A program made the position numbers and the translations under genes. Shown here in pieces: positions 12,699-36,371 of a stretch of DNA of 37,619 nt. Under the pieces are notes generated by a model. The model ran no database searches. It was not told the DNA's origin and was given only the letters and a program-made list of their open reading frames with translations. Position 1 is the stretch's first letter. The number at the start of each line of letters is the position of its first letter. The stretch comes from Citricoccus sp. CH26A (GTDB lineage Bacteria; Actinomycetota; Actinomycetes; Actinomycetales; Micrococcaceae), in contig NZ_AFXQ01000027.1 of NCBI RefSeq assembly GCF_000224415.1, forward strand, positions 1-37,619. The letters run 5' to 3'.

Positions 12699-13712
12699 TC
12701 AGCGCCGGGCGGTGAGGGCGATGCGGGTGACGACGCGCTCGACGGCGTACTCGGCGTCCTTGGCCAGTCCCTTGGCCTCGGCGTCGGCCTGCGCGACCCA
12801 CTCGATGGCGGCCGCGATGGTCGCGGGATTCCAGAACCGGACGGTCTCCGCGACGCGCTTGGCCTGCCAGGGGGCCATTCCCAGGACCTGGGCGACCTGG
12901 CCCTGCGAGATGCGGGCGTCGACGATCCGGGCGATCTGCCGGGTCTTCATGGCCAGGGCTCCCGTGATGGCCGGTGCGGAGACCCCGGTGGCCAGGGCGT
13001 GCCGCAACAGGGCGGTGGCCTGGCCGGCCCGGCCCTCGATGGCCGCGTCGGCGACCCGGAAGGCGGTGGCCTCGACCCGTCCGCCGTAGTACCGGTCCAC
13101 GACCTGGGTGGTCACGGTCCCCTCGGTGTCCGCGGCCAGCTGCTGACAGGCCACCGCGAGGTCGGTCAGCGATCCACCCGTGGCGTCGATGAGGGACCGG
13201 ACGGCCTCCTGGTCGATCGACCGGCGCCGGGACCGGAACTCGCCGACGACGAAGTCGGCCTTGTCCGCGTCGGACTTGATGGGCTGGCACTCCACCAGCA
13301 CCCCGGACGAGGTGACCACGTCCAGCAGCCTCTTGCCGCGGTTGCCTCCGGTGTGGCGCAGGATCAGGGTGACGTCGTCGGCGGGAGCGGCCACGTAGTC
13401 GAGGCAGTCGGCCAGGAACGCCTCGTTCATGTCCTGCAGGCCCTCGGCCAGGACGATCTTCGCCTCGCCGAACAGGGACGGGCTGGCCAGCATGGACAGT
13501 TGTCCGGACTGGTAGTCGGCGGCATCCAGCCGGTGGAGCTCCAGGCCCGGGTCCGCCTGCCGCAGCGCCGCCCTGACCCGGTCCGTGACCCGGGTGGCGA
13601 TGAAGTCCTCGGGCCCCTTCAGGAGCATGAGGGGAGCCGGTTCCACGCGTCGCCAGTCGGTGCCGGAGGTGGTGGATCGGCGAGAGCGGCTGGGGGCGGG
13701 CATGCGTGTCAT
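12699..13712 (-). CDS. holA: DNA polymerase III subunit delta
   Basis: Clamp-loader delta subunit, 337 residues, which opens the sliding clamp for loading onto primed DNA. The LMLLKGPEDFIATRV start, the DVTLILRHTGG segment, ATGGSLTDLAVACQQLA and the C-terminal helical collar with LRHALATG, LAMKTRQIARI and APWQAKRV fit the actinobacterial HolA family. The ATG at 13712 overlaps the comEC stop (ATGA), indicating coupling; an internal ATG at 13703 is an alternative start. The comEA-comEC-holA order is standard in actinobacteria. Confidence 0.95.
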   Translation of the reverse strand: MTRMPAPSRSRRSTTSGTDWRRVEPAPLMLLKGPEDFIATRVTDRVRAALRQADPGLELHRLDAADYQSGQLSMLASPSLFGEAKIVLAEGLQDMNEAFLADCLDYVAAPADDVTLILRHTGGNRGKRLLDVVTSSGVLVECQPIKSDADKADFVVGEFRSRRRSIDQEAVRSLIDATGGSLTDLAVACQQLAADTEGTVTTQVVDRYYGGRVEATAFRVADAAIEGRAGQATALLRHALATGVSAPAITGALAMKTRQIARIVDARISQGQVAQVLGMAPWQAKRVAETVRFWNPATIAAAIEWVAQADAEAKGLAKDAEYAVERVVTRIALTARR

Positions 13713-16400: not shown

Positions 16401-17237
16401 TCACCAGCTGACGAGTCCGTCGAGGCGTTCCATCATGGCCGGTCCGATGCCGGACACCGCGTCCAGGTCCGCCAATGATCCGTAGGGTCCGACCTGCTCA
16501 CGGTGGTCGACGATCCTGCCGGCCAGCGCGGGTCCGATGCCGGGCAGCTGTTCGAGCGCGGCGGCATCCGCCGTGTTGACGTTGACCGTGCCGCTCGGGG
16601 AACCGGAACCGCCCGAGGCCTCGTTCACCGGCTGTCCCCCAGGACCGTCACCGGGTTCCATCCCACCGGTTGCCAGCGGGGTGTCCGGCCCGGGCACGAG
16701 GATCTGGCTGGCGTCCACGGCCGGTGCGGCGAGGTTCAACAGGTCGAGTCTCGCCCGCGTCGTCGACCCGCCGGCGGCATGGAGCGCGTCGGCCACGCGG
16801 GAACCGGGCGGCAGCTCCACGAGCCCCGGTTCGTGGACCTCTCCCGCCACGTGCACGATCACGGCCCCGGAGGCGGTGGCTGCCGTGCCGTCGTCCTGGT
16901 CAGTCGGTGACGGCCCGGCGCCTGGCAGGCCGTCGTCCGGTGGTCCGGGCACCGCCGTGGCCGAGGGGGCGCGGTCCGTGCCCGCCTGCCGCTCAGCGTC
17001 CTCGCCCTCACGGTCGGGATGTCCCTCCCGGCTCTCGAGGGCGGCGGCCTGTGGTGCCGGGGTACCCGTCGGCCCGGTCGGTGACACCAGCCAGCTGACG
17101 GCCCACCACGTGGCCGCGAGCACCGCCAGCAACAGGACGGCTGAGGTCACGACGCGCCCCCGCCACAGGGGGGCCACCGGAGGCGGCTGCTCCCAGTCCC
17201 CCGTCACGGGGGCATCGTGGTGGCTGTGGCGTCCCAT
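16401..17237 (-). CDS. comEA: ComEA family DNA-binding protein
   Basis: A 278-residue membrane-anchored DNA receptor of the competence machinery. It has a basic N-terminus, a single membrane segment at about 29-51, a Pro/Gly/Asp-rich linker, an SLBB-type domain (VIVHVAGEVHEPGLVELPPG, about 125-185) and a C-terminal tandem helix-hairpin-helix (VNVNTADAAALEQLPGIGPA and VSGIGPAMMERL). These are the standard ComEA parts in order. It lies directly upstream of comEC on the same strand. The ATG is at 17237. Confidence 0.95.
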   Translation of the reverse strand: MGRHSHHDAPVTGDWEQPPPVAPLWRGRVVTSAVLLLAVLAATWWAVSWLVSPTGPTGTPAPQAAALESREGHPDREGEDAERQAGTDRAPSATAVPGPPDDGLPGAGPSPTDQDDGTAATASGAVIVHVAGEVHEPGLVELPPGSRVADALHAAGGSTTRARLDLLNLAAPAVDASQILVPGPDTPLATGGMEPGDGPGGQPVNEASGGSGSPSGTVNVNTADAAALEQLPGIGPALAGRIVDHREQVGPYGSLADLDAVSGIGPAMMERLDGLVSW

Positions 17238-22527: not shown

Positions 22528-22705
22528 GGCGGCAGGATACCGGCTGTGGACAGGGCGGACAGCGGATGGGGCGGCTGTGTTTGAATGTCGAGTGTGGCCT
22601 GGGACACGGGATGACTAGGCTCTTTGAACTGCTGTGGGGATGGCAGGCCGGGGCGTGCGAGCGCGGCTCCGGTGGCTGGCCTCGTGGCCTGACGGGGGTT
22701 CCTCC

Positions 22706-23422
22706 ATGACTGAACGAGTGAGCACGTTGCTGATGAGTCGCCGGGCCGCGCGGGCGGGTGTTGCGGGGGCGGTACTGGCCCTGGCGCTGACCGCTTGCGG
22801 CAGTGGTGCCGACGATCCGGACACCGGCGCTCCGGTGAGCACAACCTCGGCATCGAGCGAGGCCGTGCCGGAGCCGAGCGCATCCGAGGACGCGAAGGAC
22901 TCAGCAGCGCCCTCGGGGTCCTCAACGGCGTCTCCTGACGCGACGGAGGGCGAGTTCGTCCCGGCGTCCTCCGACGGGCCCGCCCAGAACGTGCCGGTCC
23001 CCGAGATGCCGCCTGCCGCCAAGGAGCAGACCCAGGAGGGCCTGGAGGCCGCGCTGGAGTATTGGTGGGAAGCGGAGCGGTACCTCAAACTGACTGGCGA
23101 CCCTGACCCACTGCGAGCAGTCTCAACCGATGACTGTGCCTTGTGTGAAGAGTTGATCAAGAACTGGCCAGCAATTTATAAGGCTGACGGTTGGGCAGAC
23201 ATAGGAGACACAGAAATGGAGGTCGCATTTAGTTCGCTCGATAACAACAATCTCGGTGGACGGGCGATCTTGATGGTTTCGGAGGCGCCCGGTGAGGTCT
23301 ACCGGCCCGACGGTTCAAGGGTGAAATCGGCTTCGGGTGATGGCAGCAAAGACGTCGGCTGGGGCGCCGGCGCCAGATACTCCGGCGGGCAGTGGCAGAT
23401 CGAAGCCATGAGCGTGCAATGA
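22706..23422 (+). CDS. DUF6318 family lipoprotein
   Basis: A secreted lipoprotein of about 238 residues. A twin-Arg-like basic N-terminus (SRRAARAG) precedes a hydrophobic stretch and the lipobox LTAC, so the mature protein starts at that Cys. A Ser/Thr/Ala-rich linker follows. The DUF6318-like domain begins near [13 protein letters not shown] and contains [31 protein letters not shown] and a CALC pair. Function is unknown. Upstream starts exist (frame open from 22634); GTG 22718 is an alternative. Its stop overlaps the next gene's ATG (ATGA). From about 23085 onward the codon use becomes clearly lower in GC than in its own first half. Confidence 0.85.
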
Positions 23423-24039
23423 AGACTGTAGCTCTGACCAGGTTGTTGGTTGTATTTACAATTTCTGCACTGCTGGCCCCTAGTCCATTTACGGCTGTTG
23501 CCGATATTGACGATCCGTTCAGCCGCATTAAGGCCAATACTGGAGATGCCAGTGCGGGTTTAAGAGTCGAGAAGGATCAGGCCGCTGGTGATGAGGTTGT
23601 GGACCTTGACAGTTCGGAATCATCTGAGTCCATTTCGAGGTCCCCAGCGAATACCGAGCCCAAGTCGCAATATGTAGAGCTACTTCAGCCTTTTTGCCTC
23701 GGGGGGCATGAAAACGACGGAACAGGGTACATCGACTGCTTCGAAATGGAGCAGACCTTATGCACCCAGGCTGGAAGCCAGTACGTCATCCGGGCACGCT
23801 ATGAACCTGCTGATCCCACCAACTCGTTACAGCGCTTCGGACAACCGTTCTGCTCCGAACCGTCGGACCCGGTCATCAGTGACCCAGCAGAGGCCGAACC
23901 GGAGGCTCCACCGATGCCCGTCGTGACGCTCGCTGACTTCCGGCGTCTGGACATCGCCCCCTCGAAGATCAAGTCGGACTCCGGCGGGTTCGGACTGATC
24001 CGGGCCAACGCCAACTTCGATCACACGCTAACCCGCTAA
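23419..24039 (+). pseudogene. 5' part of a secreted PKD-domain protein gene, interrupted by the element
   Basis: This frame encodes a signal peptide ([19 protein letters not shown], cleaved near FTAVAD), an acidic Ser-rich stretch and a Cys-containing region (QPFCLGGHEND, DCFEMEQTLC, QPFCSEP). It ends with TLADFRRLDIAPSKIKSDSGG-like sequence (key PVVTLADFRRL) leading to GLIRAN. The chromosomal part ends at 24009; the last residues before the stop at 24039 are read from element DNA. Joined to 35967-36371 it would give about 331 residues (197 + 134) with a C-terminal PKD domain. The truncated 206-residue product may still be made and secreted. It is coupled to the upstream lipoprotein by ATGA. 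Confidence 0.88.
24006..24034 (+). other. attL: left junction of the element
   Basis: CAAC (24006-24009), then one mismatch and CCAACTTC (24011-24018), match the right junction. The inner arm TCACACGCTAACCC (24021-24034) is the exact inverted repeat of 35938-35951 at the right end. Distance from the centre of CAAC to the arm is 13 bp. Confidence 0.85.
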
Positions 24040-24173
24040 CGGGACGCATGGTCGGTGGCTGGAGGTTATTCAGGTACACAGAAACGGGGTCTCACCTGCG
24101 CACGAGGCTCTGCAAGTATTAGAAGCCTGTACTGCTTGCACCTACCTGACGGGCGATAGGAAGGGGTCTCGTC

Positions 24174-24938
24174 ATGATCAGCTTCAATACTTGGTGCTCG
24201 CAACCGGCGTTGACATCGCACCAGATGCACCGGATCGGCATGCTTGAGGCTCACGATGAAGCTACTGGCGTGGCGCTCATAACTGAGATGCTTCCCAATG
24301 CTTATGCTGACACTCCGGCGCTCGCGTTCGTCGCCGAGCGGCGTGGCAAGTCCGGAGTGGCGGCGTTTCTCCGCGACCGCTTGCCCGCGGAAAAGGGCGC
24401 TCGATCGGGCGACATGGGCGAGATTTTGGCGACCGCCTATCTCTACGAGGAGCGCGGTTACGTCGTCGGGCCTAGCCGGCTGATTGACCGTGACCACCAA
24501 GAGTGGGCGATGAGGGGCGATGACGTCCTCGCCGCTCGGGTCGGAGCCAACTCAGAATTGTATTTGGTTAAGGGCGAGGCCAAGAGCGCCGTCAAGCTCG
24601 GTGCAGCAACGGTTAAGGCTGCCCGGGAAGGGCTCGCCCGTAACGAGGAGATGCCGTCCCCTCACTCCTTGTCGCAGTTTGCTGTCCGACTGCTGAAGTC
24701 GCCAGACATCGCGGTTGGCGAGGCGGTGCTCGATGTGCAACTTACCGGCGGCTTGAGGCCGCACCAGGTGGGTCACCTGATGTTTCTCTTCACAAGCAGT
24801 GATCCGAGTGCGCATGTACTCGCAGACCTAAACGCCTACGAGGGTGTAGTGAGACAGCTGATCATCACCCTGCGGGTCAGGGAACACCAGAAATTCATCC
24901 GTGACGCCTACGACGGAGTGGTTGCTGATGTCCCGTAA
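24174..24938 (+). CDS. hamA: Hachiman anti-phage protein HamA (DUF1837 nuclease)
   Basis: A 254-residue protein matching HamA, the DUF1837 effector nuclease of the Hachiman defence system. The central SGDMGEILATAYLYEERG (about 78-95) is the family block, with E83 a likely active-site residue. RGDD (114-117) and GEAK (134-137) then provide the D...E-x-K pattern of a PD-(D/E)xK-like nuclease. In characterised Hachiman systems HamA is held by HamB and cuts DNA when the helicase senses damaged or invading DNA. The ATG at 24174 has AAGGGG 7 nt upstream. The gene overlaps hamB by 11 bp. The catalytic residues look intact, so it is probably functional. Confidence 0.9.
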   Translation: MISFNTWCSQPALTSHQMHRIGMLEAHDEATGVALITEMLPNAYADTPALAFVAERRGKSGVAAFLRDRLPAEKGARSGDMGEILATAYLYEERGYVVGPSRLIDRDHQEWAMRGDDVLAARVGANSELYLVKGEAKSAVKLGAATVKAAREGLARNEEMPSPHSLSQFAVRLLKSPDIAVGEAVLDVQLTGGLRPHQVGHLMFLFTSSDPSAHVLADLNAYEGVVRQLIITLRVREHQKFIRDAYDGVVADVP

Positions 24939-27900
24939 CTCTGATGAATTAGCCCGCCAGCTCGCCGCTGTCATCGATCCAGACTTCCGTAATCGCCTCC
25001 TCGCGCGAGGACAGGCCCAGTCGATGATTCGTCGCTATGGCATCCTTCCGGAGGGTTCACCCGAGTTCAGCCCCTTTCTGGACGCTGACCTCCTCAACTA
25101 TGGCTACGCACTGCTCACCAACGGATTGGAGTTACTCGAGGAACTGGAGAGAGACGATGACGTTGAGAATAAAGCAAGCAGTCAGACGGAGGTCGCTCGT
25201 CACGCGTTCATACAGAGTTCGTACGCCTTAGAAGCGGCAACTCGAAATGCCGCAGACGCCCCCGACAACATGTTTCACCGACTCATTGCGGGTGCGGGCA
25301 GCCATCTCGGTGGATACGCCGCTCGCGCCTTCTCACTTACGGAGAGTAGTCGGGAGTCAGGCCAGCTCACGCCTATGGAACTCACACTAGCGGACCTGAT
25401 GATGCGCGATCTTGACGCCATAGAGGAACGAACAAGACTGCTGCGCTCTTCCGCAGCAGTCACGGATGACTCTCTGCTCGCTTCCCTCTCCAGCGGCGCC
25501 GACAACGATGCGGTGCGTCGGCTCGGCCCCGTTGCCCTACTACTAAGCGAGAACTACCTCTCAGCAGTATCCTTAGCGTTGTTTGCGATTGAAGTCGGCG
25601 ACCGCGAGCTCCTGGCCGCAGCCCTGGAGGAAATCGCTTTGGGCGAGCAAGCCTCAATGGAAGTAAATGCTCCTGGTCCTTGGTGGGTCTACCGACTCAC
25701 CCGCCGGATGCTCAGCGACCTTAACGACACCAGCATCGGCAGAAACATTCCAGACGTCCCGCCAACAGGTCGAGATGACGAAGTACCTCGCTGGCGGTAC
25801 CTGCGAAGCACCTTCATCGAGACGCTTTTGGGACGACGAAGGTCCGAGATCGACCTGTGGCCCTCGCAGCTCAACGTTGTGGAACGGATCTTCGCCGACT
25901 CTCGCGACCTCGTCGTCGCACTTCCCACGAGTGCTGGCAAGACCCGAATTGCCGAGTTGGCCATCTTGACCTGTCTGGCGCAAAGGCGGCGTACGGTCTA
26001 TGTCACCCCGCTCAGGGCGCTCTCTGCCCAAACTGAAAAAATCCTAGCCCGCACATTCGGCCCACTCGGCGTGCGGGTGTCGTCGCTGTACGGAAGTATG
26101 GGGATCAGCGAGTTAGATGATGACATGTTGCACTCGAGCGACATCGTGGTCGCTACCCCCGAGAAGCTGGACTTCGCGCTCAGATCTGATCCCTCCGTTC
26201 TGGACGATGTCGGCCTGATAGTTCTCGACGAGGGCCACATGATCGGCGCTTCCGAGCGTGAGGTCCGATACGAGGCCCAGATCCAGCGGCTCCTTAGGCG
26301 CCCGGACGCCTCGACGCGACGGATCGTCTGCTTGTCCGCCGTGTTTCCCTCCGGCGCAGAGTTGGAGGACTTCGTCGCCTGGATAACTAAGGACCAGCCC
26401 GACGGACTGCACCAAGAAACTTGGCGTCCAACTCTCCAGCGATTCGGCCTAGTTGAGTGGCGTGACGATCACGCGGGGTTGGCAATCACTCTCGGATCAG
26501 ATCAGCCGTTCATCCCTCGCTACGTCGAGGCGAAGCAACCGACCGGAAGGCGGCGGAACCAGTTCCCCCAGAACCAGCGTGAGCTTGTGATCGCGACGGC
26601 GTGGCGTTTGGTTGAAGAGGGTGAGACAGTTCTCGTCTTCTGCCCTCAACGCAACTCAGTCGAACCGTATGCGCGTGAAATTCTACGACTCCACAAGCAA
26701 GGCCTCATCAGCTCCGTCCTTCCCGATCATGTCAATCTGAGCGGTGTGCTCGCAGTAGGAAAGGAGTGGTTCGGTGTCGATCATCCGCTCTTGAAGTGCC
26801 TCGAACTGGGTGTCGCTATTCACCACGGAGCCTTACCAAGCCCGTTCCGCAGAGAAGTGGAGAAGCTTCTCCACGAGGGCCAGCTGAAGGTGACTGTTGC
26901 CTCGCCAACGCTCGCTCAGGGCCTCAACCTATCGGCGTCGGCCGTGTTATTCCACCAACTCCGGCGGGGAGGAGACCTGCTCAAGGGTGCAGATTTTTCG
27001 AATGTGATTGGCCGGGCCGGGCGCGCATTCGTCGACACAGAAGGACTCGTGCTCTATCCAATCTTCGAGCAACGACAGCGCCAACGGCGGCGACAACGGC
27101 AAGATTGGCTCCAATTGACTCAGGGCGACGGAGGCAAGGCGCTCAATTCCGGCCTCATTGAAGTTGGCTCTGCCCTGCTCCGCCGCATGTACGTCTCGCG
27201 CGGAGCCGGGCCCATTGAACCTTTTCTGGAATATCTCACAGGGGCCCCGAACTGGAGCCTTCCCATCCTGCAACATGAATCGGAGGAGGAACAAGCAACA
27301 GCCGCCACCACATGGACATCCAACCTTTCACTACTCGACATCGGTCTTCTCAGCATCATCGGAGACGGCGCTTACGATGCAGACCCCGATGCTGCTACGC
27401 AGGTGATCGCTGATGCTCTAGTTGGATCGCTGTGGGATCGTCAGCTACGCCGGCATGACGCTGATGTGGCGTCAGCCGCTCGCCAGTTGATAGCGGCCAG
27501 AGTCCGACATCTATGGCGAACGTCCACGCCTTCCCAGCGACGCGGCTGGTACCTCGCTGGACTAGGCGCCGACGCCGGGCTCAAGTTGTCTGAAGTATCT
27601 AAGCAAATAGTCGACCAAATAGAGCGGGTCGAAATCGCCCTCGCCGATGAGGATTATGTCCTAGCGTCTGACGGGCTCGTCCAAATCGCTACCACAATCT
27701 TCGGGCTCGACACCTTTACGCCTAAAGTCGAAGTCGTTGACTGGAAGGCCGTGCTCCGTCGATGGGTCCACGGGCTGAGCCTGTCAGACCTTTCCGGAGA
27801 TCAAATCGCTAATGCACAGTTCATCGAATCCGATCTGATCTATCGCTTGGTCTGGGGCATGGAAGCCGCCAGGGTTTTTGAGGCGGCCCAGGGCAACATC

Positions 27901-28446
27901 TTGGCTGAAACGCTGAACGGTACCGCCGTGACAGCAATCGAGACAGGTACTTTTTACTGGTCCGCTTCGGTGCTCATCCGGTCCGGATTCGATCATCGCC
28001 TTGCAGCGGTAAACGCCGTCACAAGCACTGGAGCGGACTTCAACTCGGCGGTCGACATGCGTCGATGGATCCGCGAACTCCCTCCCTGGTACGCCGACAA
28101 TAAATCGTGGCCGAGCCCTGAATCACGGCCGGCATGGGAAGAATTCGTGTCACACAACCGTCAATCTCTCCACCGGCAATGGAGGCGCAAACATCTGAAC
28201 GTCTCAGCTGTAACTTGGTACGGCGACGTACCTTCCCCAAGAGCCTGGCTCCGCATTACGGCCCTTGACGCGGGAACCGTCCAGATCTGGTCCCCCGGGT
28301 TCGACCTCCTCGGCGAGGCCGCGGTCGAGTTGAACCCCAAACCACGGGGGGTACTTCGCGCGCAACGTCTCGCTAGCACGCTGGGCATTCGTTTGTTGTA
28401 TCGGGGACCCGGTGATCTTTTACCTTCCGAAGTGACCAAGGGTTAG
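24928..28446 (+). CDS. hamB: Hachiman anti-phage helicase HamB
   Basis: A 1172-residue superfamily 2 helicase of the Ski2-like type. It has a helical N-terminal domain of about 300 residues, then Walker A PTSAGKT (333-339), DEGH (434-437), SAV (470-472) and motif VI GRAGR (695-699). A long C-terminal region of about 450 residues has no motif I recognise. Next to hamA this defines a complete Hachiman operon. HamB translocates on DNA and controls HamA. The frame opens at GTG 24901, but ATG 24928 with GGAG 9 nt upstream is the better start. GC content is well below that of the flanking chromosome. No frameshift is visible. Confidence 0.9.
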   Translation: MSRNSDELARQLAAVIDPDFRNRLLARGQAQSMIRRYGILPEGSPEFSPFLDADLLNYGYALLTNGLELLEELERDDDVENKASSQTEVARHAFIQSSYALEAATRNAADAPDNMFHRLIAGAGSHLGGYAARAFSLTESSRESGQLTPMELTLADLMMRDLDAIEERTRLLRSSAAVTDDSLLASLSSGADNDAVRRLGPVALLLSENYLSAVSLALFAIEVGDRELLAAALEEIALGEQASMEVNAPGPWWVYRLTRRMLSDLNDTSIGRNIPDVPPTGRDDEVPRWRYLRSTFIETLLGRRRSEIDLWPSQLNVVERIFADSRDLVVALPTSAGKTRIAELAILTCLAQRRRTVYVTPLRALSAQTEKILARTFGPLGVRVSSLYGSMGISELDDDMLHSSDIVVATPEKLDFALRSDPSVLDDVGLIVLDEGHMIGASEREVRYEAQIQRLLRRPDASTRRIVCLSAVFPSGAELEDFVAWITKDQPDGLHQETWRPTLQRFGLVEWRDDHAGLAITLGSDQPFIPRYVEAKQPTGRRRNQFPQNQRELVIATAWRLVEEGETVLVFCPQRNSVEPYAREILRLHKQGLISSVLPDHVNLSGVLAVGKEWFGVDHPLLKCLELGVAIHHGALPSPFRREVEKLLHEGQLKVTVASPTLAQGLNLSASAVLFHQLRRGGDLLKGADFSNVIGRAGRAFVDTEGLVLYPIFEQRQRQRRRQRQDWLQLTQGDGGKALNSGLIEVGSALLRRMYVSRGAGPIEPFLEYLTGAPNWSLPILQHESEEEQATAATTWTSNLSLLDIGLLSIIGDGAYDADPDAATQVIADALVGSLWDRQLRRHDADVASAARQLIAARVRHLWRTSTPSQRRGWYLAGLGADAGLKLSEVSKQIVDQIERVEIALADEDYVLASDGLVQIATTIFGLDTFTPKVEVVDWKAVLRRWVHGLSLSDLSGDQIANAQFIESDLIYRLVWGMEAARVFEAAQGNILAETLNGTAVTAIETGTFYWSASVLIRSGFDHRLAAVNAVTSTGADFNSAVDMRRWIRELPPWYADNKSWPSPESRPAWEEFVSHNRQSLHRQWRRKHLNVSAVTWYGDVPSPRAWLRITALDAGTVQIWSPGFDLLGEAAVELNPKPRGVLRAQRLASTLGIRLLYRGPGDLLPSEVTKG

Positions 28447-28755
28447 TTGTCTCCGCATCGAAGTTTCTATCGTCCACGAGGACAATCGGGAGCGGGTAGG
28501 AGACCGGAGAAGATAGGGACCAACTACAGGTAGCGACGAAGTCTCCCAGATTCAGGTCGAAAAATTCCGCTCCGCGGACACGCCCACCCCGCCCCGTCGT
28601 AGGTTCGCGGCGTCTCAAGCTACTGACATGAAGACTCCAGGGCACCGCGATTGGAGGTTTGGGCGGGGACACGCGAATATGGGCCTGTGACACAACCCAC
28701 CAAGTCAAGTGAGAAGTCCAATCCCCACGGATCGCAGAGCACCATTGAGGGGCGC
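28447..28755. other. Gap between hamB and the DUF2971 gene
   Basis: No convincing gene or terminator was found here. A minus-strand frame (28373-28786) stays open across it but overlaps the hamB 3' end, has no clear ribosome binding site and resembles no known family. The promoter of the DUF2971 gene should lie here. Confidence 0.4.
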
Positions 28756-29802
28756 ATGCACACGATCCAGGGAAAATTTCGAGCAAAGCTTAGCTCGCCA
28801 CCCATCCCATGGAGTATCACGGATGACTTCCTGCCGTCATTGCTACATCACTACACCACTGTCGACGGGCTGCGGGGCATCACCAAGAGCAACGCACTTT
28901 GGGCCTCTGACCCTAGGTATATGAACGATGCATCAGAGCTCACTTACGCGGCGTCACTCATTGATGGCATTGTCAAGGAGGCTTACCAAAGCTTGGATGA
29001 CGACCGTATCCATCGTCTAGTGCCATATCATTCCGGCATCGCCAATGGGTTCGGGCAAGGGGCTCGTCCATTCATCGCATGTCTGTGCGAAAAGGGTGAC
29101 CTACTTTCACAATGGCGTGGGTACGGCGTGGATACGGCACCGGTTTCCTTGGGAATGAGTTTACTTCAGATGAACTACCCTGATGGATTACCTCCCCGAA
29201 CCATTCTCCGCAAAGTCATCTATAGCAGGGATCAGCAACACAGATCGGTCAAATGGATCACTGAATCATGGTTCCAGATTATTGCGTCGGTGTTAGACCG
29301 AACGAAGGGTGCTTCAATCGGCGAGTGGTTCCGCCCCCTGGCAATTCAGGAACTTCAGCAAGCCTTGGCCGTGCATCATTTGTGTTTCAAGCATCCCTCG
29401 TTTGAGGAAGAACAAGAGTGGCGACTGATCAGGGTGGTAGACGTAGAGGAAGATTCCCGTCTACGCGATGGTCGTCGGCAAGAAGTGGAGGGAGTCGCTC
29501 AGAAGCGGACCGATAAGGCCGGAAGTGAGACGCCTGAACCTGCAACCGATGGTAGCGGTGCCCCGAACGACATTGTTGACGTTCGTTTTCGCCAGTCATC
29601 ACTTGGCCTTGTTCCGTACGTGGAGATCCCGCTATTAGATACGGAAGGTAATTTCGACGGACGACTTCCATTGTGGCAAGTAATCCAAGGTCCTACGTCG
29701 CATCCGGAACTTGCGCTGGACTCGCTACGGATGTATCTGAATTCCTGTGGATACGGAGAACCTACAGAAGTACTGCCTTCCGACATACCTCTGCGGTGGT
29801 AG
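28756..29802 (+). CDS. DUF2971 domain-containing protein
   Basis: A soluble protein of about 349 residues showing the DUF2971 pattern: LHHYTTVDGLRGI (29-42), LWASDPRYMNDASE (48-61), CEKGDLLSQWRGYG (111-124) and FEEEQEWRLI (216-225). The molecular function of the family is not established. Its members occur often in defence and mobile-element contexts. The HYTT start and late conserved EEEQEW glutamate could suggest an ADP-ribosyltransferase-like fold, which is my inference only. ATG 28756 follows GAGGGG at close spacing; GTG 28687 and TTG 28651 are possible longer starts. The stop lies 5 bp from the converging gene at 29808. Confidence 0.75.
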   Translation: MHTIQGKFRAKLSSPPIPWSITDDFLPSLLHHYTTVDGLRGITKSNALWASDPRYMNDASELTYAASLIDGIVKEAYQSLDDDRIHRLVPYHSGIANGFGQGARPFIACLCEKGDLLSQWRGYGVDTAPVSLGMSLLQMNYPDGLPPRTILRKVIYSRDQQHRSVKWITESWFQIIASVLDRTKGASIGEWFRPLAIQELQQALAVHHLCFKHPSFEEEQEWRLIRVVDVEEDSRLRDGRRQEVEGVAQKRTDKAGSETPEPATDGSGAPNDIVDVRFRQSSLGLVPYVEIPLLDTEGNFDGRLPLWQVIQGPTSHPELALDSLRMYLNSCGYGEPTEVLPSDIPLRW

Positions 29803-29807
29803 CTCAG

Positions 29808-30065
29808 CTACCCATGCCCCTTGGTCGCCGCATTTGACGGCTTGGGTGTGATACCCATGGCGCCAGTCGTCGACTCACTGGTTCTTGCCATCTGTCGACG
29901 GCGAGCAATCAGCGACAACCGCTGAAGTGCAGTTGAGGTGAGGTGCGGTCTAAATGCCTTGGTGGATGGAGAATCAGAATTGGACGAACCAGAGGGGACG
30001 CATACTTGCTGAACCAGAGGACGTAGTGCTTCCTCTTTGGTCCGCTCCCCAATCATCCCGACCAC
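29808..30065 (-). CDS. Hypothetical small protein (85 aa)
   Basis: I do not recognise this product. It is basic and largely polar, with a helical-looking start (MVGMIGERTKEEALRPLVQQ) and no membrane segment. Support comes from a strong Shine-Dalgarno (AAGGAGAAGGAG, about 4 nt before the GTG at 30065), its position 47 bp downstream of the 214-residue gene on the same strand, and a stop only 5 bp from the stop of the converging DUF2971 gene. An ATG three codons in is an alternative start. It could also be a chance frame. Confidence 0.45.
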   Translation of the reverse strand: MVGMIGERTKEEALRPLVQQVCVPSGSSNSDSPSTKAFRPHLTSTALQRLSLIARRRQMARTSESTTGAMGITPKPSNAATKGHG

Positions 30066-30112
30066 ACCACTCCTTCTCCTTGGCCAGTCGTCTCAAGTAC
30101 ACTCGCAGCCGA

Positions 30113-30757
30113 TCAAACCTTCTCGTGCCAGTCGGGTACAAATGGTTCTATCAAATGGCCCAAGTTGTAGCGGACGAGAAAGTTACCTACCGCCTGCTGG
30201 TACAGCCAGCTGATGTCCCACATAGCTAAAGCTAGGTTTCCGGTGGTAACCGTCGATTCACTGGGAGCGAGTACACCGGAGGCTTCAACGTGCCAGAGCT
30301 GCCCGTGCACGACGGCGCTGTATAGACGCCACCACGACGTCGTCCGCAAGCGGATGAGGTTAAGGTCGTACTGAGGGCAGTCAAGCTTTCCGCACTCGCA
30401 GTTTCCCTGAGCTACCAGACAATCTAGGCAGTCCTTGAGCATCTTCGATTCTGAGGCAACGCGGGGGCGCTTGGGCCGCGGGCCTACCTCCTCCCCCAGC
30501 AGGCTCCTCTGCTCCCAGAGGGCGTCCTCGTATTCCCACCGGTCCTTCGCGAACAGCTTCACGGCCCTCGCATTCCTCTCTTCACGGTTCTCAGGGTGAA
30601 GGACATATAGCGCCTTGAAGGAATAGAGCAATGCACCCCGGAGGAGTTGCTCGATAGGGACTGGCCCCATCGGATGGGGAACTAGTTCGGCTACCGCCTG
30701 GAGAGACCGCGTCGCCGAATGAAGGAACTGATTGACTTGAAGGGTGTAAATATTCAC
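30113..30757 (-). CDS. Hypothetical protein with Cys cluster (214 aa)
   Basis: No family was recognised. The protein is mainly helical. It has a cysteine cluster C110-x2-C113-x6-C120-x-C122-x4-C127, which may bind zinc, followed by a WWRLYSAVVHGQLWHV segment with a conserved-looking Arg...His pattern like that seen in some all-helical HEPN- or AbiV-like proteins. That likeness is weak and is not a function call. It starts with GTG at 30757, overlapping the TGA of the upstream 56-residue gene (GTGA), which is strong evidence for coupled translation. It lies inside the defence part of the element. Confidence 0.68.
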   Translation of the reverse strand: MNIYTLQVNQFLHSATRSLQAVAELVPHPMGPVPIEQLLRGALLYSFKALYVLHPENREERNARAVKLFAKDRWEYEDALWEQRSLLGEEVGPRPKRPRVASESKMLKDCLDCLVAQGNCECGKLDCPQYDLNLIRLRTTSWWRLYSAVVHGQLWHVEASGVLAPSESTVTTGNLALAMWDISWLYQQAVGNFLVRYNLGHLIEPFVPDWHEKV

Positions 30758-30924
30758 CCCCGGTCATCAAGCAAGGTGCCCGCCCGGTCGAGGAAGGCTT
30801 CACCGGAAGATTGCCAGACGTCCTGCAATTTCGAGATATGGCTTTTACCCCAAGCGATGCGCCCGAGAGCGTTGAACATGTAGAACTCATATTCGGAATC
30901 CGTCTGCTCATTGTTCGAGTTCAC
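30754..30924 (-). CDS. Hypothetical small protein (56 aa)
   Basis: An unrecognised acidic, polar small protein (starts with NSNNEQTDSEYEFYMFNALG). The frame is open from TTG 30948, but GTG 30924 has AAAGGTGG upstream and is preferred. Its stop overlaps the start of the 214-residue gene, so it is the first gene of a coupled pair. Its size and position would suit a partner, inhibitor or antitoxin of the larger protein, but this rests on layout only. Confidence 0.55.
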   Translation of the reverse strand: MNSNNEQTDSEYEFYMFNALGRIAWGKSHISKLQDVWQSSGEAFLDRAGTLLDDRG

Positions 30925-31338
30925 CGTGTCACCACCTTTTGGACTCAAAAGAGTGCCCCCTTGATGTGCCTAAAGTGTGGGAGCTTGTAGCCCAGCCCCC
31001 CGCCGGTTATGGATCTTGCCAGATCGGCTGGCGGTTCGCCTCAAACGAGATCCGGCCTGGAGCTGGTACATGTCCGGAAGCCGCTGGGCGCCATCTGGAG
31101 GGCCCATGAGGGTCCGTGGCCCCTGGAGTGCATCACAGTTCCAACAGAGCCTTAGATCCGCACAGGGAGGCTGCCGGCGGGCACTGGTGTATGCTCGGGC
31201 CGTGATCAACACCCCCATCCCCGAAGGGTTTACCGGAATGCATAGCCCACGTTTCTACTGAGGTTCAACCTCAATAGCTGTGTGGGCTTTGAATTAACGG
31301 TAAGGGCATGTCTGTGCCCGATGATCAAAGGAGATTCA
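30925..31338. promoter_or_regulatory. Divergent intergenic region with structured leader before the coiled-coil gene
   Basis: About 410 bp without a firm gene. On the plus strand TATGCT (31190-31195) is followed by 6 nt and GTG 31202, which opens a 19-codon frame ending at 31261. The stop TGA forms the first bases of a perfect dyad TGAGGTT-C-AACCTCA (31259-31273). A small hairpin GGGCA-N6-TGCCC (31304-31308 with 31315-31319) then precedes the Shine-Dalgarno AAGGAG and GTG 31339. Longer frames at 30977-31261 (plus) and 30970-31218 (minus) overlap each other and were not accepted as genes. Confidence 0.45.
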
Positions 31339-32037
31339 GTGATTGAATCCACTACGCCCAAGCTGTCCGAAATCACGCCTGAGGAGACGCCCGAGCTGAT
31401 CGCCGCCCGAGAGGAGCTGGCCCAGGCTGCGGAGCAACGGGACCAGGCCGAGGCTGTGCTGGAGCAGAGGCGCACAGAGCTGAACACTCAGGCCGCCAAG
31501 GTGAACGCTCTGCGGCAGGCCGTCCAGGCCGGGGACACCGAGGCCGCCATCGTGGAGCCGGGCGAGTACCGGGAGCATCAGGCCATGGCCCAGCAGGTCT
31601 CCGACCTCCAGCGTGCGGTCACCGCACGGCGCCGGGCTGTCCGCGTGGCGCAGTCCCGGCTGACCGTGGCCATGGCAGTGGCCGGCATCGGGGGCATTGC
31701 GAACGATGATGAGCAGGCCCGGATCGCAGCCGAGCTGTCCCATGCCGTGAAGCTAATCCTCCGTCCCGTGCTGCAGCGGATCCAGGAATCGGACCGGAAC
31801 ATCTACGCCACCATGGAGCGGGTCAAGGGCCACGTGCGGGAGGTCCCCGGCCTGTCCATGATCGGACTGTCGGACCGTCCCAGCGGATTCGCCTACCGGG
31901 ATCAGGTCTTCAACCCCCACGGGGAGACGCGGCTGAAGGGCCTGTTTGATCGGGCTTGGTCCAACGCCCAGGCGGAGCTGATCCAGGAACGGAAGCAAGC
32001 TCAAGAGCAGGCACGGGAGCAGGCCCAGCAGGGCTGA
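31339..32037 (+). CDS. Hypothetical coiled-coil protein
   Basis: A 232-residue protein without a recognised family. About residues 15-115 form a long predicted coiled coil rich in Ala, Glu, Gln and Arg heptads. A middle region with AVAGIGGIANDD and an Arg/Lys-containing RPVLQRIQESDRNIYATM stretch follows. The C-terminus is a Gln/Glu/Ala-rich helix (QERKQAQEQAREQAQ). The start is GTG 31339, with AAGGAG 5 nt upstream; the frame opens earlier at 31282. GC content is higher than in the ham genes. A role in DNA packaging or regulation cannot be told from sequence. Confidence 0.8.
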   Translation: MIESTTPKLSEITPEETPELIAAREELAQAAEQRDQAEAVLEQRRTELNTQAAKVNALRQAVQAGDTEAAIVEPGEYREHQAMAQQVSDLQRAVTARRRAVRVAQSRLTVAMAVAGIGGIANDDEQARIAAELSHAVKLILRPVLQRIQESDRNIYATMERVKGHVREVPGLSMIGLSDRPSGFAYRDQVFNPHGETRLKGLFDRAWSNAQAELIQERKQAQEQAREQAQQG

Positions 32038-32201
32038 CCCATCCCCGGGGCATTAGGGCCTTGGGAAGTCTGGGGGACTCCGCTAGGGCTCCGTCCCGGG
32101 CACGCACCCCCTCGTTCCTTCGGGGAAAGAGTCCACGGGTCTAGGCCAGGCGGCGCCCTGCCCGTTCCCAGCCATTGTGCGGGGAATCGACAGACGTCCG
32201 C

Positions 32202-32229
32202 TTGGCCGGACCCGGGACCTTGGTACATT
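32202..32229 (+). promoter_or_regulatory. Candidate promoter for the HNH gene
   Basis: TTGGCC (32202-32207) and TACATT (32224-32229) are spaced by 16 bp, 26 bp before the ATG of the HNH-like gene. Both hexamers are moderate matches to sigma-A boxes. Confidence 0.35.
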
Positions 32230-32255
32230 TTCGAGCCGGTCCAGGAGGCCAGGTC

Positions 32256-33257
32256 ATGAAGTCTCTGGGCATGTGCACGGCGGTCCGCAAGGCCGGTCCG
32301 TGCGATCGTCCGGCCACTCGCCGCAGGGTGCTGCATTTCCATCGGGAGCCGGTCTGCGGGACGTGCTATCGACGGATCTACCGGCAGAACACGGTGGAGT
32401 GTTCGGCGTCAGGATGCACGGTCCGGCTCTACCCCCGGTCCAACAAGGGCAGGACCGTGCCGGCGCCATGGTGCCGGGACGACGAGCACCGGGCGCTGTC
32501 GGTGGAGGTGCTGGGAGAGTCTGGCCGGGAAGAGGTCAAGCGGGAGTTCGTCGCCAGGATCGAACCCGACTGGGAGACCGGTTGCTGGAAGTGGGTTGGC
32601 AAGATCCAGGGAGGATACGGCCGGTACCGGTCCACGCCGAAGCTCACCGGGGAGTGGGTGGCCCATCGTATGGGCTACCACTTGTTCGAGGAAGGCCATG
32701 AGATTGGTCAGGAGCTGGATCACCGGCATGGCAGTGCCTACGGGGCGGGACCACTGTGCGTCTCTCCGTTGCACCTCCAGCCGGTCACCCAGGAACGGAA
32801 CATCGAGCTGCGGGACCTGCGACGTGCAGACCCATTGGGCTACTGGTACCGGCCGGAGGAGTCCGGGGAGATTCGCCTGTCGTTGATGGTGTTCGCTGGG
32901 TTGAACGGCCTGCCGTTGAAGACTCCCGAGCTGGACTACTCGGCCTCGTGGGACCCCAACAGGAAGCAACCGGCAGGAACCGAATCCGGGGTGCCGGCAC
33001 CCATCGTTCCCGAGGCACCCGCCGGGGTCGCGCCGGCCGAGCCGCCCGAGGTGGACCGGGCCGGGTTGCGGATGTCTGCCCGCATCTTCGAGGAGCTGAA
33101 GCTGTCCCCGCTGGAGGCGCGGGTTTTGCGGGTCTGGTTTCGCTGGCCCGTCTGGAACCGACGCTTCATGCGGGGGTGGGGGCAGGGCGTGCTGCTGGAA
33201 CCGGAGGATCGGCAGGTGGGTATTTCCTCTGGTCAGCAAAGGAACGGCGGGCTTTAA
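32256..33257 (+). CDS. HNH endonuclease-like protein with Cys-rich N-terminus
   Basis: A 333-residue protein. The N-terminal part has cysteines C7, C16, C34, C37, C49, C54 and C73 that could form zinc ribbons. An HNH_3-type core follows: GCWKWVGKIQGGYGRY (109-124), VAHRMGYHLFEEG, ELDHRHG (D155, H156) and CVSPLHLQPVTQERN (C168, H173, N182). This matches phage-type HNH nucleases with the ELDH...CVNPxHLxPVTxxEN pattern. The C-terminal third is Pro/Ala-rich, then basic and helical. The ATG at 32256 has AGGAGG 7 nt upstream. Such genes are common on phages and integrative elements, where they may nick DNA or aid packaging; the exact role is open. Confidence 0.82.
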   Translation: MKSLGMCTAVRKAGPCDRPATRRRVLHFHREPVCGTCYRRIYRQNTVECSASGCTVRLYPRSNKGRTVPAPWCRDDEHRALSVEVLGESGREEVKREFVARIEPDWETGCWKWVGKIQGGYGRYRSTPKLTGEWVAHRMGYHLFEEGHEIGQELDHRHGSAYGAGPLCVSPLHLQPVTQERNIELRDLRRADPLGYWYRPEESGEIRLSLMVFAGLNGLPLKTPELDYSASWDPNRKQPAGTESGVPAPIVPEAPAGVAPAEPPEVDRAGLRMSARIFEELKLSPLEARVLRVWFRWPVWNRRFMRGWGQGVLLEPEDRQVGISSGQQRNGGL

Positions 33258-33622
33258 AACCCGTGCCCGACCAAGGTCGTATCCACGTGCGGTAGTGACC
33301 GATGGGCGCCAAGGGGTATCCCCCACCCTTGCTTGTCGCCGCCGACTCTGCAGGGCGGTCTGGCCGCACGAGCTGGAGGACTACGAGGACTGCGTATGCC
33401 GGATCGAGAGTGCATGGAACCAAAAGAATCCCCCGAAACTACCCGAGGACCCACTCCGCGAACGGCAGCAAAAGATCTGGGCCGCCATCGTCATCATTAT
33501 GGTGAAGAGGAGCGCCCACGGAGCCGCCGACCAGAGTTACATGTTCAAGTCAAGGCTCACGGCGAAGGGCGGTCATCAGCCCTTGGTGTACACGAAGGGG
33601 TCCCTACTTGTACACTGGGTGG
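33258..33622. other. Gap between the HNH gene and the resolvase gene
   Basis: No firm gene here. A plus-strand frame from GTG 33295 to 33690 has a protein-like middle (HELEDYEDCVCRIESAWNQ) but overlaps the resolvase start by 68 bp and lacks a ribosome binding site; it may be a gene remnant. Near the right end are two copies of KTGTACAC (33586-33593 and 33608-33615), centres 22 bp apart, just before the resolvase ATG. Confidence 0.35.
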
Positions 33623-34312
33623 ATGACAACCCCTCACACCGCTCCCGGCCAGCCGCTCCGCGTGCTGGGGTACGTTCGCGTCTCTACTGACAAGCAGGAC
33701 ATAGGCCCGGAGGTCCAAGTGGCTGCCCTCCAGGCTGAAGCAGAGCGCCACGGCTGGGGGTTGGAAATACGCAGGGAGGATGCCGCCAGTGCAAAGTCTC
33801 TGGAGGGGCGTCCCGTGTTGGCTCAAGTGTTGGCCGACCTCAAAGCACGTCGGGCCGATGCGCTGGCCGTGTCCAAGCTGGACCGGCTGAGCCGCGACGT
33901 GGCCGACTTCGCTGGGATCATGAAGCTGGGCCAGCGGCAGGGCTGGGCCGTCGTAGCACTAGACCTAAACGTGGACACCACTACCCCCACCGGCGCGGCC
34001 ATGGCTCAAGTGACCATGACGTTCGCTGAGCTGGAGCGTAAGAGGATCGGCGAGCGCACCCGCGATGGCATGGCCAAGATCAAAGAACAGACGGGAAAGC
34101 ACATGGGGCGGAAGGCGGAACTTCCCCTAGAGACGGCTCTTTACGTCAACGAGTTGAAAAAGCAGGGCCTATCCCTGCGGAAGATCGCGGACCGGCTCAC
34201 CGTCGAGAATGTGGCCACCGCCAGCGGAGGTAAGTGGCACGCTTCAACCGTGAAGGCCGTGCTGGAATCGGTCACCCTGGCTCGCGCACTTCGGAAGCTG
34301 GAGGAGCCCTGA
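33623..34312 (+). CDS. Resolvase/invertase-type serine recombinase
   Basis: A 229-residue small serine recombinase. The catalytic domain occupies about residues 12-155, with GYVRVSTDKQ carrying the nucleophile S21, and SKLDRLSRDVADF supplying the conserved arginines. A C-terminal helix-turn-helix (LSLRKIADRLTVENVATASG, then W-x-x-STVKAVLE) should bind DNA. It is much shorter than the integrase next to it and lacks its zinc ribbon, so it belongs to the resolvase/invertase class. The ATG 33623 is chosen over TTG 33608. It may resolve dimers, invert a segment or regulate; no partner sites besides the KTGTACAC repeats upstream were found. Confidence 0.88.
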   Translation: MTTPHTAPGQPLRVLGYVRVSTDKQDIGPEVQVAALQAEAERHGWGLEIRREDAASAKSLEGRPVLAQVLADLKARRADALAVSKLDRLSRDVADFAGIMKLGQRQGWAVVALDLNVDTTTPTGAAMAQVTMTFAELERKRIGERTRDGMAKIKEQTGKHMGRKAELPLETALYVNELKKQGLSLRKIADRLTVENVATASGGKWHASTVKAVLESVTLARALRKLEEP

Positions 34313-34405
34313 CGACCACAGGATCGCTTCTAACGGCGCCTATTGCCGCCTACGGTCAGAAACCGCTCGACAAGGAATAAGGCTTTGAAATCGCGTCCTA
34401 GCACC

Positions 34406-35923
34406 TCACGTCCACACGGGGAGACCATTGGCGGCACCTGCCCCGTCTATGTCTTCACGCGAGAGCGGACCCGGCCCAATCGTGTTCGACTTCAGGACAA
34501 CCACCACCCTGTCCCCAAGGTCTGTTCGAGCGTTGCCCCACCCGGGCCAACAAACAACATTCATGTACTGACGGAGAAAGTCACGCTGCTCGTCGATAGG
34601 GAGTCCAGCGAACCGCTCGAACATCGCAGAGGACTCATCCACCGCCTCAACCTCGGGGGAAGAAGGGAGCACCGGGACAGCGGTGGATAGTTCGTTCAGC
34701 CTGTCCCGCTTCTCATTCATCTGAACTTCTAGCGCCGTCGAGGTCTTGGAAAGCACTCCCTCAGAGAGTCCTCCGTTCGCGTACATGCGAACGACTTCAT
34801 CGAGCCGAGCCGCGAGCGCCGCCAACTCCGATTCCAGGTTGGCTCGTTCAGTGACAACCTCTTCGCTCACCCGCATACGGTCTGCCTGGCGCTCGACGAA
34901 CGCGTACAACGCCGCTGCAACGCGGCGAACCAGCAGGTCAAGGCCATCTCTGATGATGGCCACATGCCCAGGCCCCTGAACCTTGCACCGATAGACCGGC
35001 ACCACCTTGCCCCGAGAACCTACAGACGAGGCATACAGCAGCGCGCCACACCAGCACTGTGCAATCCCCGAGAGAGGATGCTTCGGCTTATTGGTCGGTG
35101 CACGGCGCCGGGAGGGGTCGGACAGCACCGCCCGCACACCCCGCCATAGGTCGACCGACATAATCGCGGGCCAGGGCCCCGGCACACCTTCCAGCGCATG
35201 ACCTTGATGAACCGCAAACCCCGCATTGGCTGGCCGCTTCAAGACGTTCCGCACCGAGGTCTGCGTAAACGGTGCACTCCTACTGCCAGTCCACCCCTGG
35301 TCATTCCATCGGCGCATGACCACACCCACGGATACCCCCGCCAACACGTCACGCGCTGCTTGTTCCACAGCTTGCGCCTTCTCCTGGTCGACTACCCGTG
35401 ACACCTTTCCGTGCTCGTCGAACTCCACTTTCCAGCCGAAGGGAACCGGACCGCCGTGGTATCCGCCGGAACGTGCCAGCTGGGCGAACTTGTCTCGGAG
35501 CCGCTCAGCCTTCACATCGGATTCGAACTCGGAGAACTGAGCCATAACCCCGGCATTGAGGCGACCGGCTGAAGTCGAAAGATCAATTACTCCCCCGCCC
35601 TTCACGGCAATCGTGGAGATGCCCCGCTCACCGCCGCACGCGTCAACGTAAGTGGACAGATCAGCAACGCGACGGTACAGCCTGTCCACCTTGTAGACCA
35701 GAACCGTAGAGACCTCCCGCGCTCGCAGACGAGCCAGCATCTCCTCGTAGGCCGGACGCGGCTTCCCGGAAAATGCCGAAATGTCGTTGTCTGCAAAAAC
35801 TTCCACCACCATCAGGCCGTGTCGGTCGGCATAGTCCCGGCAGATCGCCTCCTGCCGCTGGATGCCCAGCTCGTCCCCGGAGCGGTCAGACGAGATGCGG
35901 GTATAGATGAATGCCGTGGTCAT
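34406..35923 (-). CDS. Large serine recombinase (site-specific integrase)
   Basis: A 505-residue large serine integrase. The N-terminal resolvase domain (1-145) has YTRISSD with S11 as likely nucleophile and YKVDRLYRRVADL arginines. The recombinase domain lies at about 155-265 (GGPVPFGWKVEF, NVLKRPANAGF). A zinc ribbon has C290, C292 and C313. A coiled coil at about 345-420 (ERANLESELAALAARLDEVV) is the type that controls integration versus excision. The ATG at 35923 is only 14 bp from the inverted-repeat arm of the right junction, typical for an integrase next to its att site. AGGA lies about 7 nt upstream. It converges with the small resolvase gene. No excision factor was recognised. Confidence 0.95.
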   Translation of the reverse strand: MTTAFIYTRISSDRSGDELGIQRQEAICRDYADRHGLMVVEVFADNDISAFSGKPRPAYEEMLARLRAREVSTVLVYKVDRLYRRVADLSTYVDACGGERGISTIAVKGGGVIDLSTSAGRLNAGVMAQFSEFESDVKAERLRDKFAQLARSGGYHGGPVPFGWKVEFDEHGKVSRVVDQEKAQAVEQAARDVLAGVSVGVVMRRWNDQGWTGSRSAPFTQTSVRNVLKRPANAGFAVHQGHALEGVPGPWPAIMSVDLWRGVRAVLSDPSRRRAPTNKPKHPLSGIAQCWCGALLYASSVGSRGKVVPVYRCKVQGPGHVAIIRDGLDLLVRRVAAALYAFVERQADRMRVSEEVVTERANLESELAALAARLDEVVRMYANGGLSEGVLSKTSTALEVQMNEKRDRLNELSTAVPVLPSSPEVEAVDESSAMFERFAGLPIDEQRDFLRQYMNVVCWPGWGNARTDLGDRVVVVLKSNTIGPGPLSREDIDGAGAANGLPVWT

Positions 35924-35937
35924 GACTAGATCCTACA

Positions 35938-35978
35938 GGGTTAGCGTGTGAAGAGTACTCGTCAACACCAACTTCTAT
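35938..35978 (+). other. attR: right junction of the element
   Basis: The element arm GGGTTAGCGTGTGA (35938-35951) is followed by 11 bp, CAAC (35963-35966), one mismatch to the left junction and CCAACTTC (35968-35975). PKD gene sequence continues from here. The centre of CAAC is 13 bp from the arm, the same distance as at the left end. Confidence 0.85.
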
Positions 35979-36371
35979 GCCACCGAGGAGCCCCAGACCC
36001 TCAACACCACCATGCTGGGCCAGCAGGTCGCCATCCAGGCGATCCCGGTGCAGTGGACGTTCACGTACGGCGACGGCACCGCCCCCTTGGTCAGCACCAC
36101 TCCGGGCGGTCCGCAGCGCGAGTTCAACCAGGAGACCACCACGTCCCACGCCTACCAGCAGACCGGTACCTTCCCGGTCACGGTGGCCACCGCCTACCGG
36201 GGACAGTTCTCCGTCAACGGTGGCCCCTGGATCGCCATTCCCGGCACCGCCAGCGTGCCCAGCACCCCGGTTGAGGCCGACATCTGGCGATCCGAGGCCA
36301 AGAACGTCGCCGAGGACTGCCATCAGAACCCCGACGGCTGGGCGTGCGCCAACCCCTTCATCGAAGACTGA
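35967..36371 (+). pseudogene. 3' part of the interrupted PKD-domain protein gene
   Basis: These 134 codons plus stop encode TNFYATEEPQTLNTTMLGQQ, then a PKD domain (VQWTFTYGDGTAP, TSHAYQQTGTFPVTV) and a C-terminal tail with two Cys (EDCHQNPDGWAC). PKD domains are Ig-like folds of extracellular proteins. There is no start codon with a ribosome binding site, so the fragment is probably silent while the element is in place. In frame it continues exactly from the 5' part at 24009. Codon use is high-GC like the chromosome. Confidence 0.88.

Follow-up and report, generated by a model that had tools for sequence, protein, structure and literature searches.

A large serine recombinase element splits a PKD-protein gene in Citricoccus sp. 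CH26A and belongs to an integrase clade frequently found in Tad-pilus and comM genes

Inactivation of transformation genes by mobile elements has been described in streptococci, in Bacillus and Listeria, and in some proteobacteria. According to the accessible text of two reports, such elements integrate into competence genes in other phyla, and it has been argued that this protects them from removal by transformation (PMC4774983, PMC12637031). In the elements described by Croucher et al. (2016), integrase families target comYC, comFA, comM and comK, orthologous sites are reused across species and single genes are hit convergently, and the main text, as available, holds none of the terms tad, Flp, Actinobacteria, Micrococc or serine (PMC4774983). 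In Micrococcus luteus, nearly all tad genes tested, along with comEA and comEC, are required for transformation, as far as the accessible text of the two studies goes (PMC4322843, PMC8467076). We analyzed a 37,619-nucleotide stretch of DNA (the window; contig NZ_AFXQ01000027.1, positions 1 to 37,619) from Citricoccus sp. CH26A (assembly GCF_000224415.1, family Micrococcaceae), in which an 11,957-bp element, with a large serine recombinase (LSR) as its integrase, splits a gene for a PKD-domain protein. Integrases related to this one likewise appear to target transformation genes, reuse orthologous sites and converge on one gene. Compared with the accessible account of the earlier elements (PMC4774983), the present insertions hit Tad/Flp-pilus genes of Micrococcaceae as well as a gene without an assigned function, and the integrases are LSRs.

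The element lies in the second gene of a DUF6318-PKD pair. The upstream partner (22634..23422, + strand; Pfam PF19843, E 2e-35) encodes a DUF6318 protein that appears by eye to be a lipoprotein, and its stop codon overlaps the PKD start codon (ATG). The N-terminal 197 codons of the PKD gene occupy 23419..24009 (+), as judged from alignment through the joint with intact homologues, while the C-terminal 134 codons and the stop occupy 35967..36371 (+) and contain a Pfam PKD domain (E 4e-5; 23.9 bits, with a cut-off of 23.5). Joined at a shared CAAC, the two half-genes (23419-24009 + 35967-36371) form a single open frame of 331 amino acids that begins with an apparent signal peptide, recognized by eye. 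The initial annotation had proposed just this joined frame of about 331 codons with a PKD domain, had named the shared CAAC as the joint and had predicted that an empty site would show the exact join; each of these proposals was borne out, the last two by the homologues and site features described below.

The crossover cores of attL and attR are the CAAC sequences at 24006..24009 and 35963..35966, respectively. The putative attP arms are a perfect 14-bp inverted repeat, found at 24021..24034 at the left end of the element and at 35938..35951 at its right end, and their symmetry centre is the AA of CAAC, between 24007 and 24008. Among 20,000 base shuffles of both 60-bp ends, a symmetric run of at least 10 was seen in none, and an inverted run of at least 10 in any register in 36. 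The base following CAAC is G on the left (24010) and A on the right (35967), after which CCAACTTC is common to both sides. A threonine codon (ACx) follows the joint in all six aligned loci of the same genus (L003-L008), as it does on the right side, indicating that A is the host base and that crossover occurred at CAAC; since these relatives match the right-side base, the G at 24010 is derived from the element. Judged from sequence, the layout of the ends is that expected for attL and attR sites formed by a serine integrase with a symmetric attP. We also observed that the element end mimics the host sequence past the core (24010-24018 versus 35967-35975; GCCAACTTC versus ACCAACTTC), and that this near-identity exceeds the length that the core of a serine integrase requires.

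A match to the C-terminal 134 residues of the PKD protein was present in 182 of the 197 genomes of the family, and in seven of the eight genomes of the genus (the window's own and six others). Those six genomes hold nine PKD copies, every one an open frame of 331 to 409 codons, and the six homologues taken one per genome aligned through the joint without a gap. At this point the window predicts ...GFGLIRAN/TNFYATEEP..., genome G119 reads GFGLIRAH/TNFYATEER, and G034, G082 and G102 read GFGLIRGN/TNFFATEED (L014 and L021 were missing from the joint alignment and L019 and L023 were misread, all four being from outside the genus). Syntenic empty sites with both parts of the PKD gene contiguous were found in G119 (C-terminal part 91% identical) and G060 (80%), and their flanks keep the gene order of the window, including the DUF6318 gene and an alpha/beta-hydrolase-like frame. 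We take the flanking genes of conserved order to be leuS, glpK and this hydrolase-like frame. Among named records, those nearest to the C-terminal part were from a Micrococcus sp. metagenome-assembled genome (91%) and from Micrococcus terreus (70%). The window's own genome yielded no further PKD copy. In each of the 19 family neighbourhoods fetched (L091-L109), the PKD gene was preceded by a DUF6318 match within about 2.1 kb, whereas four PKD-like loci outside the family (L074-L077) showed none. By its site-specific insertion, the element has broken the PKD member of a conserved DUF6318-PKD pair.

The integrase gene (34406..35923, − strand) lies at the right end of the element and points inward, its start 42 bp off the core. 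The 505-residue product shows the Pfam domains Resolvase (PF00239, E 3e-30) and Recombinase (PF07508, E 1e-10), a PHROG integrase match (E 4e-93) and a CxC...C pattern at residues 290-313; no Pfam match was obtained for an LSR zinc ribbon. With these domains, the shared core and the symmetric attP arms, the element is a large serine recombinase element. Related LSRs, defined by E<=1e-30, were found at 47 places besides the window, and 38 of these had a fetched, usable 5′ flank. The nine relatives left unclassified were L044 and L047, with no usable flank, and G140:C36, G046:C10, G196:C60, G185:C14, G004, G036:C13 and G117:472445, which were not fetched. The 38 targets comprised tadA, tadB or tadC (19), a cut flp-type pilin gene (3), the tadE side (1), comM (3), PKD (1), and other genes or none identified (11). 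The flp assignments rest on a pilin-like motif (in L038, Pfam DUF4244 at E 0.004, under the cut-off), the tadE start in L039 lies about 150 bp from the integrase and tadE may be intact there, and in L043 homology stops about 205 bp away.

A Tad/Flp-pilus, comM or PKD target was thus seen for 27 of the 38 related LSRs, compared with 2 of 48 distant LSRs of the family, both at 200-310 bp from a tadE-like gene. The distant set came from 60 places fetched of a longer list, 11 of which were among the 38 and one of which (L121) was dropped as its flank was lacking. The target test placed none of these 48 within a Tad, comM, comEC or PKD gene, although it can miss the N-terminal parts of comM and PKD; the distant set was read by eye less fully, but queries for DUF6318, PKD, comEC and the C-terminus of comM were run against the whole of its flanks. 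The automatic target test alone gave 25/38 versus 2/48 (Fisher, 4e-10). Two recognitions by eye that this test missed, L117 (PKD) and L046 (N-terminus of comM), raise the count to 27/38 (2e-11), and counting the near-copies L048-L050 once gives 25/36 (9e-11). The E-value cut was fixed before the flanks were read, and the genes for the test were picked after the first flanks had been seen.

The target label was also clustered on an 86-row LSR tree of a quick kind with long branches flagged, requiring 10 changes compared with a mean of 23.1 for shuffled labels (0 of 500 as low). The window's integrase fell in a starred clade of 15 rows, 12 of which, including the window, carry the label; L046, entered as ‘other’ on the tree, was later placed in comM. 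The flanks therefore show that the integrase belongs to a clade with many members inside tadA, tadB, tadC, flp and comM. The tad genes struck by related LSRs have homologues in M. luteus that are essential for transformation through the Flp pilus, as given in the accessible text (PMC4322843), and by this homology many relatives, in tadA, tadC, flp and comM, are probably integrated inside genes required for transformation.

The closest relatives of the integrase were found in G024 (41% identity) and G058 (40%), where they lie in elements roughly 5.1 and 6.7 kb long, respectively. Both cut tadA (...LDMLIALNSGLP and ...LNSGFP, respectively), the LSR starts about 40 bp beyond the cut, and the remainder of tadA is found beyond the opposite end of the element; full interruption was checked for these two only. 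The cut is at the identical LNSG motif in G024, G058 and G121. Both elements also encode a resolvase and an HNH-like protein, with identities to those of the window of 63% and 30% in G024, and 31% and 33% in G058. In the G058 element we noted a TIR protein (L080:14837-15712; PADLOC TIR-TM model, E 3e-62). As the three elements share the LSR, the resolvase and the HNH-like protein, they have a recognizable common core, and two of the three carry defence-like cargo.

A second integrase has struck the PKD gene in G138, a genome of another genus. Ahead of its LSR (C36:114284-115516) lie a DUF6318 gene and a PKD gene that breaks off at ...GFGYVDRH, and the remainder of the latter (HTHIYAEVEEQ...) is found on contig C12, preceded by sequence unlike that of homologues. 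At the cut, intact relatives in that genus have the sequence GFGY[LVR]N[RQ]H[TV][NH].... Since the gene is divided between two contigs, the element of G138 is not seen end to end. The window and G138 are cut at the same codon, inside a CACA common to both. Their LSRs fall in different starred groups of the tree, and the G138 enzyme is a sister of a tadB-inserted LSR from the same genome. Integrases of this kind thus strike orthologous sites in several species, at the LNSG motif of tadA and at this PKD codon.

With relatives of the integrase so often in pilus and DNA-uptake genes, the split PKD gene may be an unrecognized part of the same machinery. We lean somewhat towards a reading in which an integrative LSR element sits in the PKD gene, the pilus and com insertions of its clade block natural transformation, and the PKD-DUF6318 pair is an uncharacterized part of, or accessory to, the Flp-pilus uptake apparatus. 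By analogy with the elements in comYC, comFA, comM and comK, insertions into Tad and com genes, and likewise that in the PKD gene, would disable DNA uptake and so block transformation, and blocked uptake would shield the element from replacement by homologous incoming DNA. More tentatively, and with slightly less confidence than an even chance would warrant, we propose that the pair, present in most Micrococcaceae, may be an unrecognized component of Flp-pilus DNA uptake, exposed by a serine-integrase clade specialized on disabling transformation, and that the window's element is a member of this clade that also carries phage defence.

Co-occurrence across the family points in the same direction. 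Ten of the 197 genomes formed a class with tadA low or absent, defined as no match at 1e-40 or a sole match weaker than 1e-50, and a PKD match was lacking in 7 of these 10 compared with 8 of the 187 others (p 3e-7; p = 2e-7 if G143, whose sole trace is a weak 26-residue match at a contig end, is counted as present). Under the stricter class of no tadA match at all, 4 of 6 genomes compared with 11 of 191 were without PKD (p 3e-4). The same test could not be informative for comEC, which is present in 197 of 197 genomes. In both searched genomes of genus g27, the distance between tadA and the PKD gene is 11.8 kb, slightly beyond the reach of the 16-19-kb stretches that were searched around the latter in the family neighbourhoods; the PKD and tadA positions are G027:C1:1066545 and 1078708, and G055:C1:539510 and 526801.

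Several observations weigh against our reading. Of the 38 relatives with a readable flank, 11 have another location, for example at an SDF symporter or a LysE gene, or lie beside nothing identified. No Tad genes were detected in the 16-19-kb stretches round the PKD gene in 19 family neighbourhoods, so that close linkage of PKD to Tad is not general, and adjacency of the pair to Tad genes as a general arrangement was rejected (0/19). The co-losses are confined to three genera, indicating few independent events, and small genomes are over-represented among them. Eight tadA-bearing genomes have no PKD match, and in G001, G168 and G033 PKD is present with tadA absent or weak. Three other PKD copies (L066, L067 and L068, in G188, G094 and G038) are pseudogene-like, broken by a stop or frameshift, and loss may simply be tolerated. 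Finally, we found no transformation data for the window's organism.

We considered a large insertion as the cause of the short PKD frames in G188, G094 and G038, and ruled it out; a DUF6318 match lies ∼0.5-1.1 kb upstream in these genomes, and the frames end by stops or frameshifts. The tad cluster of the window's own genome (C57) consists entirely of open frames, as do its comEA and comEC. The two latter genes, which we presume to be comEC (13709..16312, −; an 867-residue open reading frame with homologues in 197/197 family genomes) and comEA (16401..17237, −; 278 residues, with homologues at the corresponding place in G119 and G060), lie on the same contig as the element. In same-genus G060, comEC is split into two segments separated by about 82.7 kb (C1:1548279-1549169 and 1631856-1633613; L063, L180), which suggests a large insertion. 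An LSR lies between them at 1558788, away from the edge. An AlphaFold model of the L072 homologue of the PKD protein was confident for the C-terminal domain alone (mean predicted local distance difference test score 61), and a Foldseek comparison of this model with the PDB gave zero matches at E<=0.001. The literature search found no paper on the DUF6318 family, and the word PKD is absent from the main text of the M. luteus study, as available (PMC4322843).

The element has 60% G+C, compared with about 70% in its flanks. Its left part encodes overlapping HamA (24174..24938, +; PADLOC E 3e-78, with Pfam HamA at E 0.011, under the cut-off) and HamB helicase (24901..28446, +; PADLOC 1426 bits) genes, both strong matches. 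As in known Hachiman systems, HamA (DUF1837) and the HamB helicase are paired, here inside an LSR element, and together they make up a predicted Hachiman anti-phage system which, by homology, would earn its keep as phage defence. HamB shows 46% identity to the three other matches at E<=1e-200 among 396 genomes of the order, and 43.4% to the best plasmid copy among the matches listed. Further genes encode a DUF2971 protein (28651..29802, +; Pfam E 8e-8), an HNH-endonuclease-like protein (32175..33257, +; PHROG E 4e-16, matched in the G024 and G058 elements) for which Pfam gave no convincing match, and a small resolvase/invertase-type serine recombinase (33608..34312, +; Pfam Resolvase E 5e-37), a 63% identical gene for which adjoins the G024 LSR. 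Two frames, 30113-30757 (−, 214 residues) and 31282-32037 (+, 251 residues), had no convincing family match. No phage structural, lysis or conjugation genes were present among the element proteins searched (8 with Pfam, 8 with PADLOC, 7 with PHROGs; small reading frames were outside the search), and on this basis the element appears to be neither a prophage nor an integrative and conjugative element. The integrase matches 824 phage records, all below 60% identity (best listed, 31.6%), and no close relatives were confirmed in genome-contig and viral-contig collections.

LSRs commonly integrate within genes, and the insertion could accordingly be of a neutral kind, in which the LSR lineage uses conserved coding stretches of dispensable genes, PKD is unrelated to uptake and its loss is harmless. 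The broken PKD copies that hold no element and the 15 of 197 genomes with no PKD match fit this account, which we nevertheless regard as rather unlikely: Tad and com genes are strongly over-represented among its targets relative to those of the remaining LSRs in these genomes, and one PKD codon has been struck by two LSRs of different clades. It is less probable still that phages use Tad pili and the PKD surface protein as receptors and that the elements remove these to shut out competing phages. Targets that are mostly surface structures, the defence cargo in the window's element and the TIR-TM match in the G058 element would all be in line with such a role. However, this account leaves unexplained the three hits in comM, whose product acts on DNA after its import according to the accessible text (PMC4774983), as well as the split comEC in G060.

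The initial annotation had viewed the element as a reversible on/off insertion comparable to those in comK and sigK. Precise attL and attR sites, an intact-looking LSR and a joined frame that matches intact homologues are all compatible with conditional excision that restores the PKD gene, but such a programmed switch now appears highly improbable. LSRs require a directionality factor for excision, and none was recognized in the element by a motif scan that included the HTH_17-type excisionase motif, which is weak evidence as such factors are diverse. Moreover, the element was found in one genome only, in the integrated state, and the other PKD insertion, in G138, has a different LSR. The G024 element encodes a 68-residue HTH_17 protein (L079:6112-6318), a possible excision factor, with no counterpart recognized in the window. 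The skin element in Bacillus sigK is likewise an integrase-interrupted gene that precise excision restores. The same holds, in the accessible text, for the Listeria comK prophage (PMC4774983). Unlike both, the window's element shows no recognized phage structural genes and no sign of regulated excision. The sigK switch is therefore not the comparison that suits the element best; with related LSRs in Tad-pilus and comM genes and a second LSR at the same PKD codon, elements that inactivate transformation genes, those in comK among them, are the better parallel.

We found no report of LSR insertion in actinobacterial tad genes in the literature searched, which largely excluded subscription papers and preprints. 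Competence-disabling elements as such are a known kind. The apparent novelty lies in the machine that is targeted (the Tad/Flp pilus of Actinobacteria), in the clade of LSRs involved, and in the PKD pair emerging as a candidate component. Taken together, our results suggest that a serine-integrase clade appears to knock out the Tad/Flp pilus of Actinobacteria, an uptake machine different from that of earlier cases. If this is true, its integration sites would serve as a natural genetic screen, in which a repeatedly struck gene such as PKD would be a candidate uptake gene.

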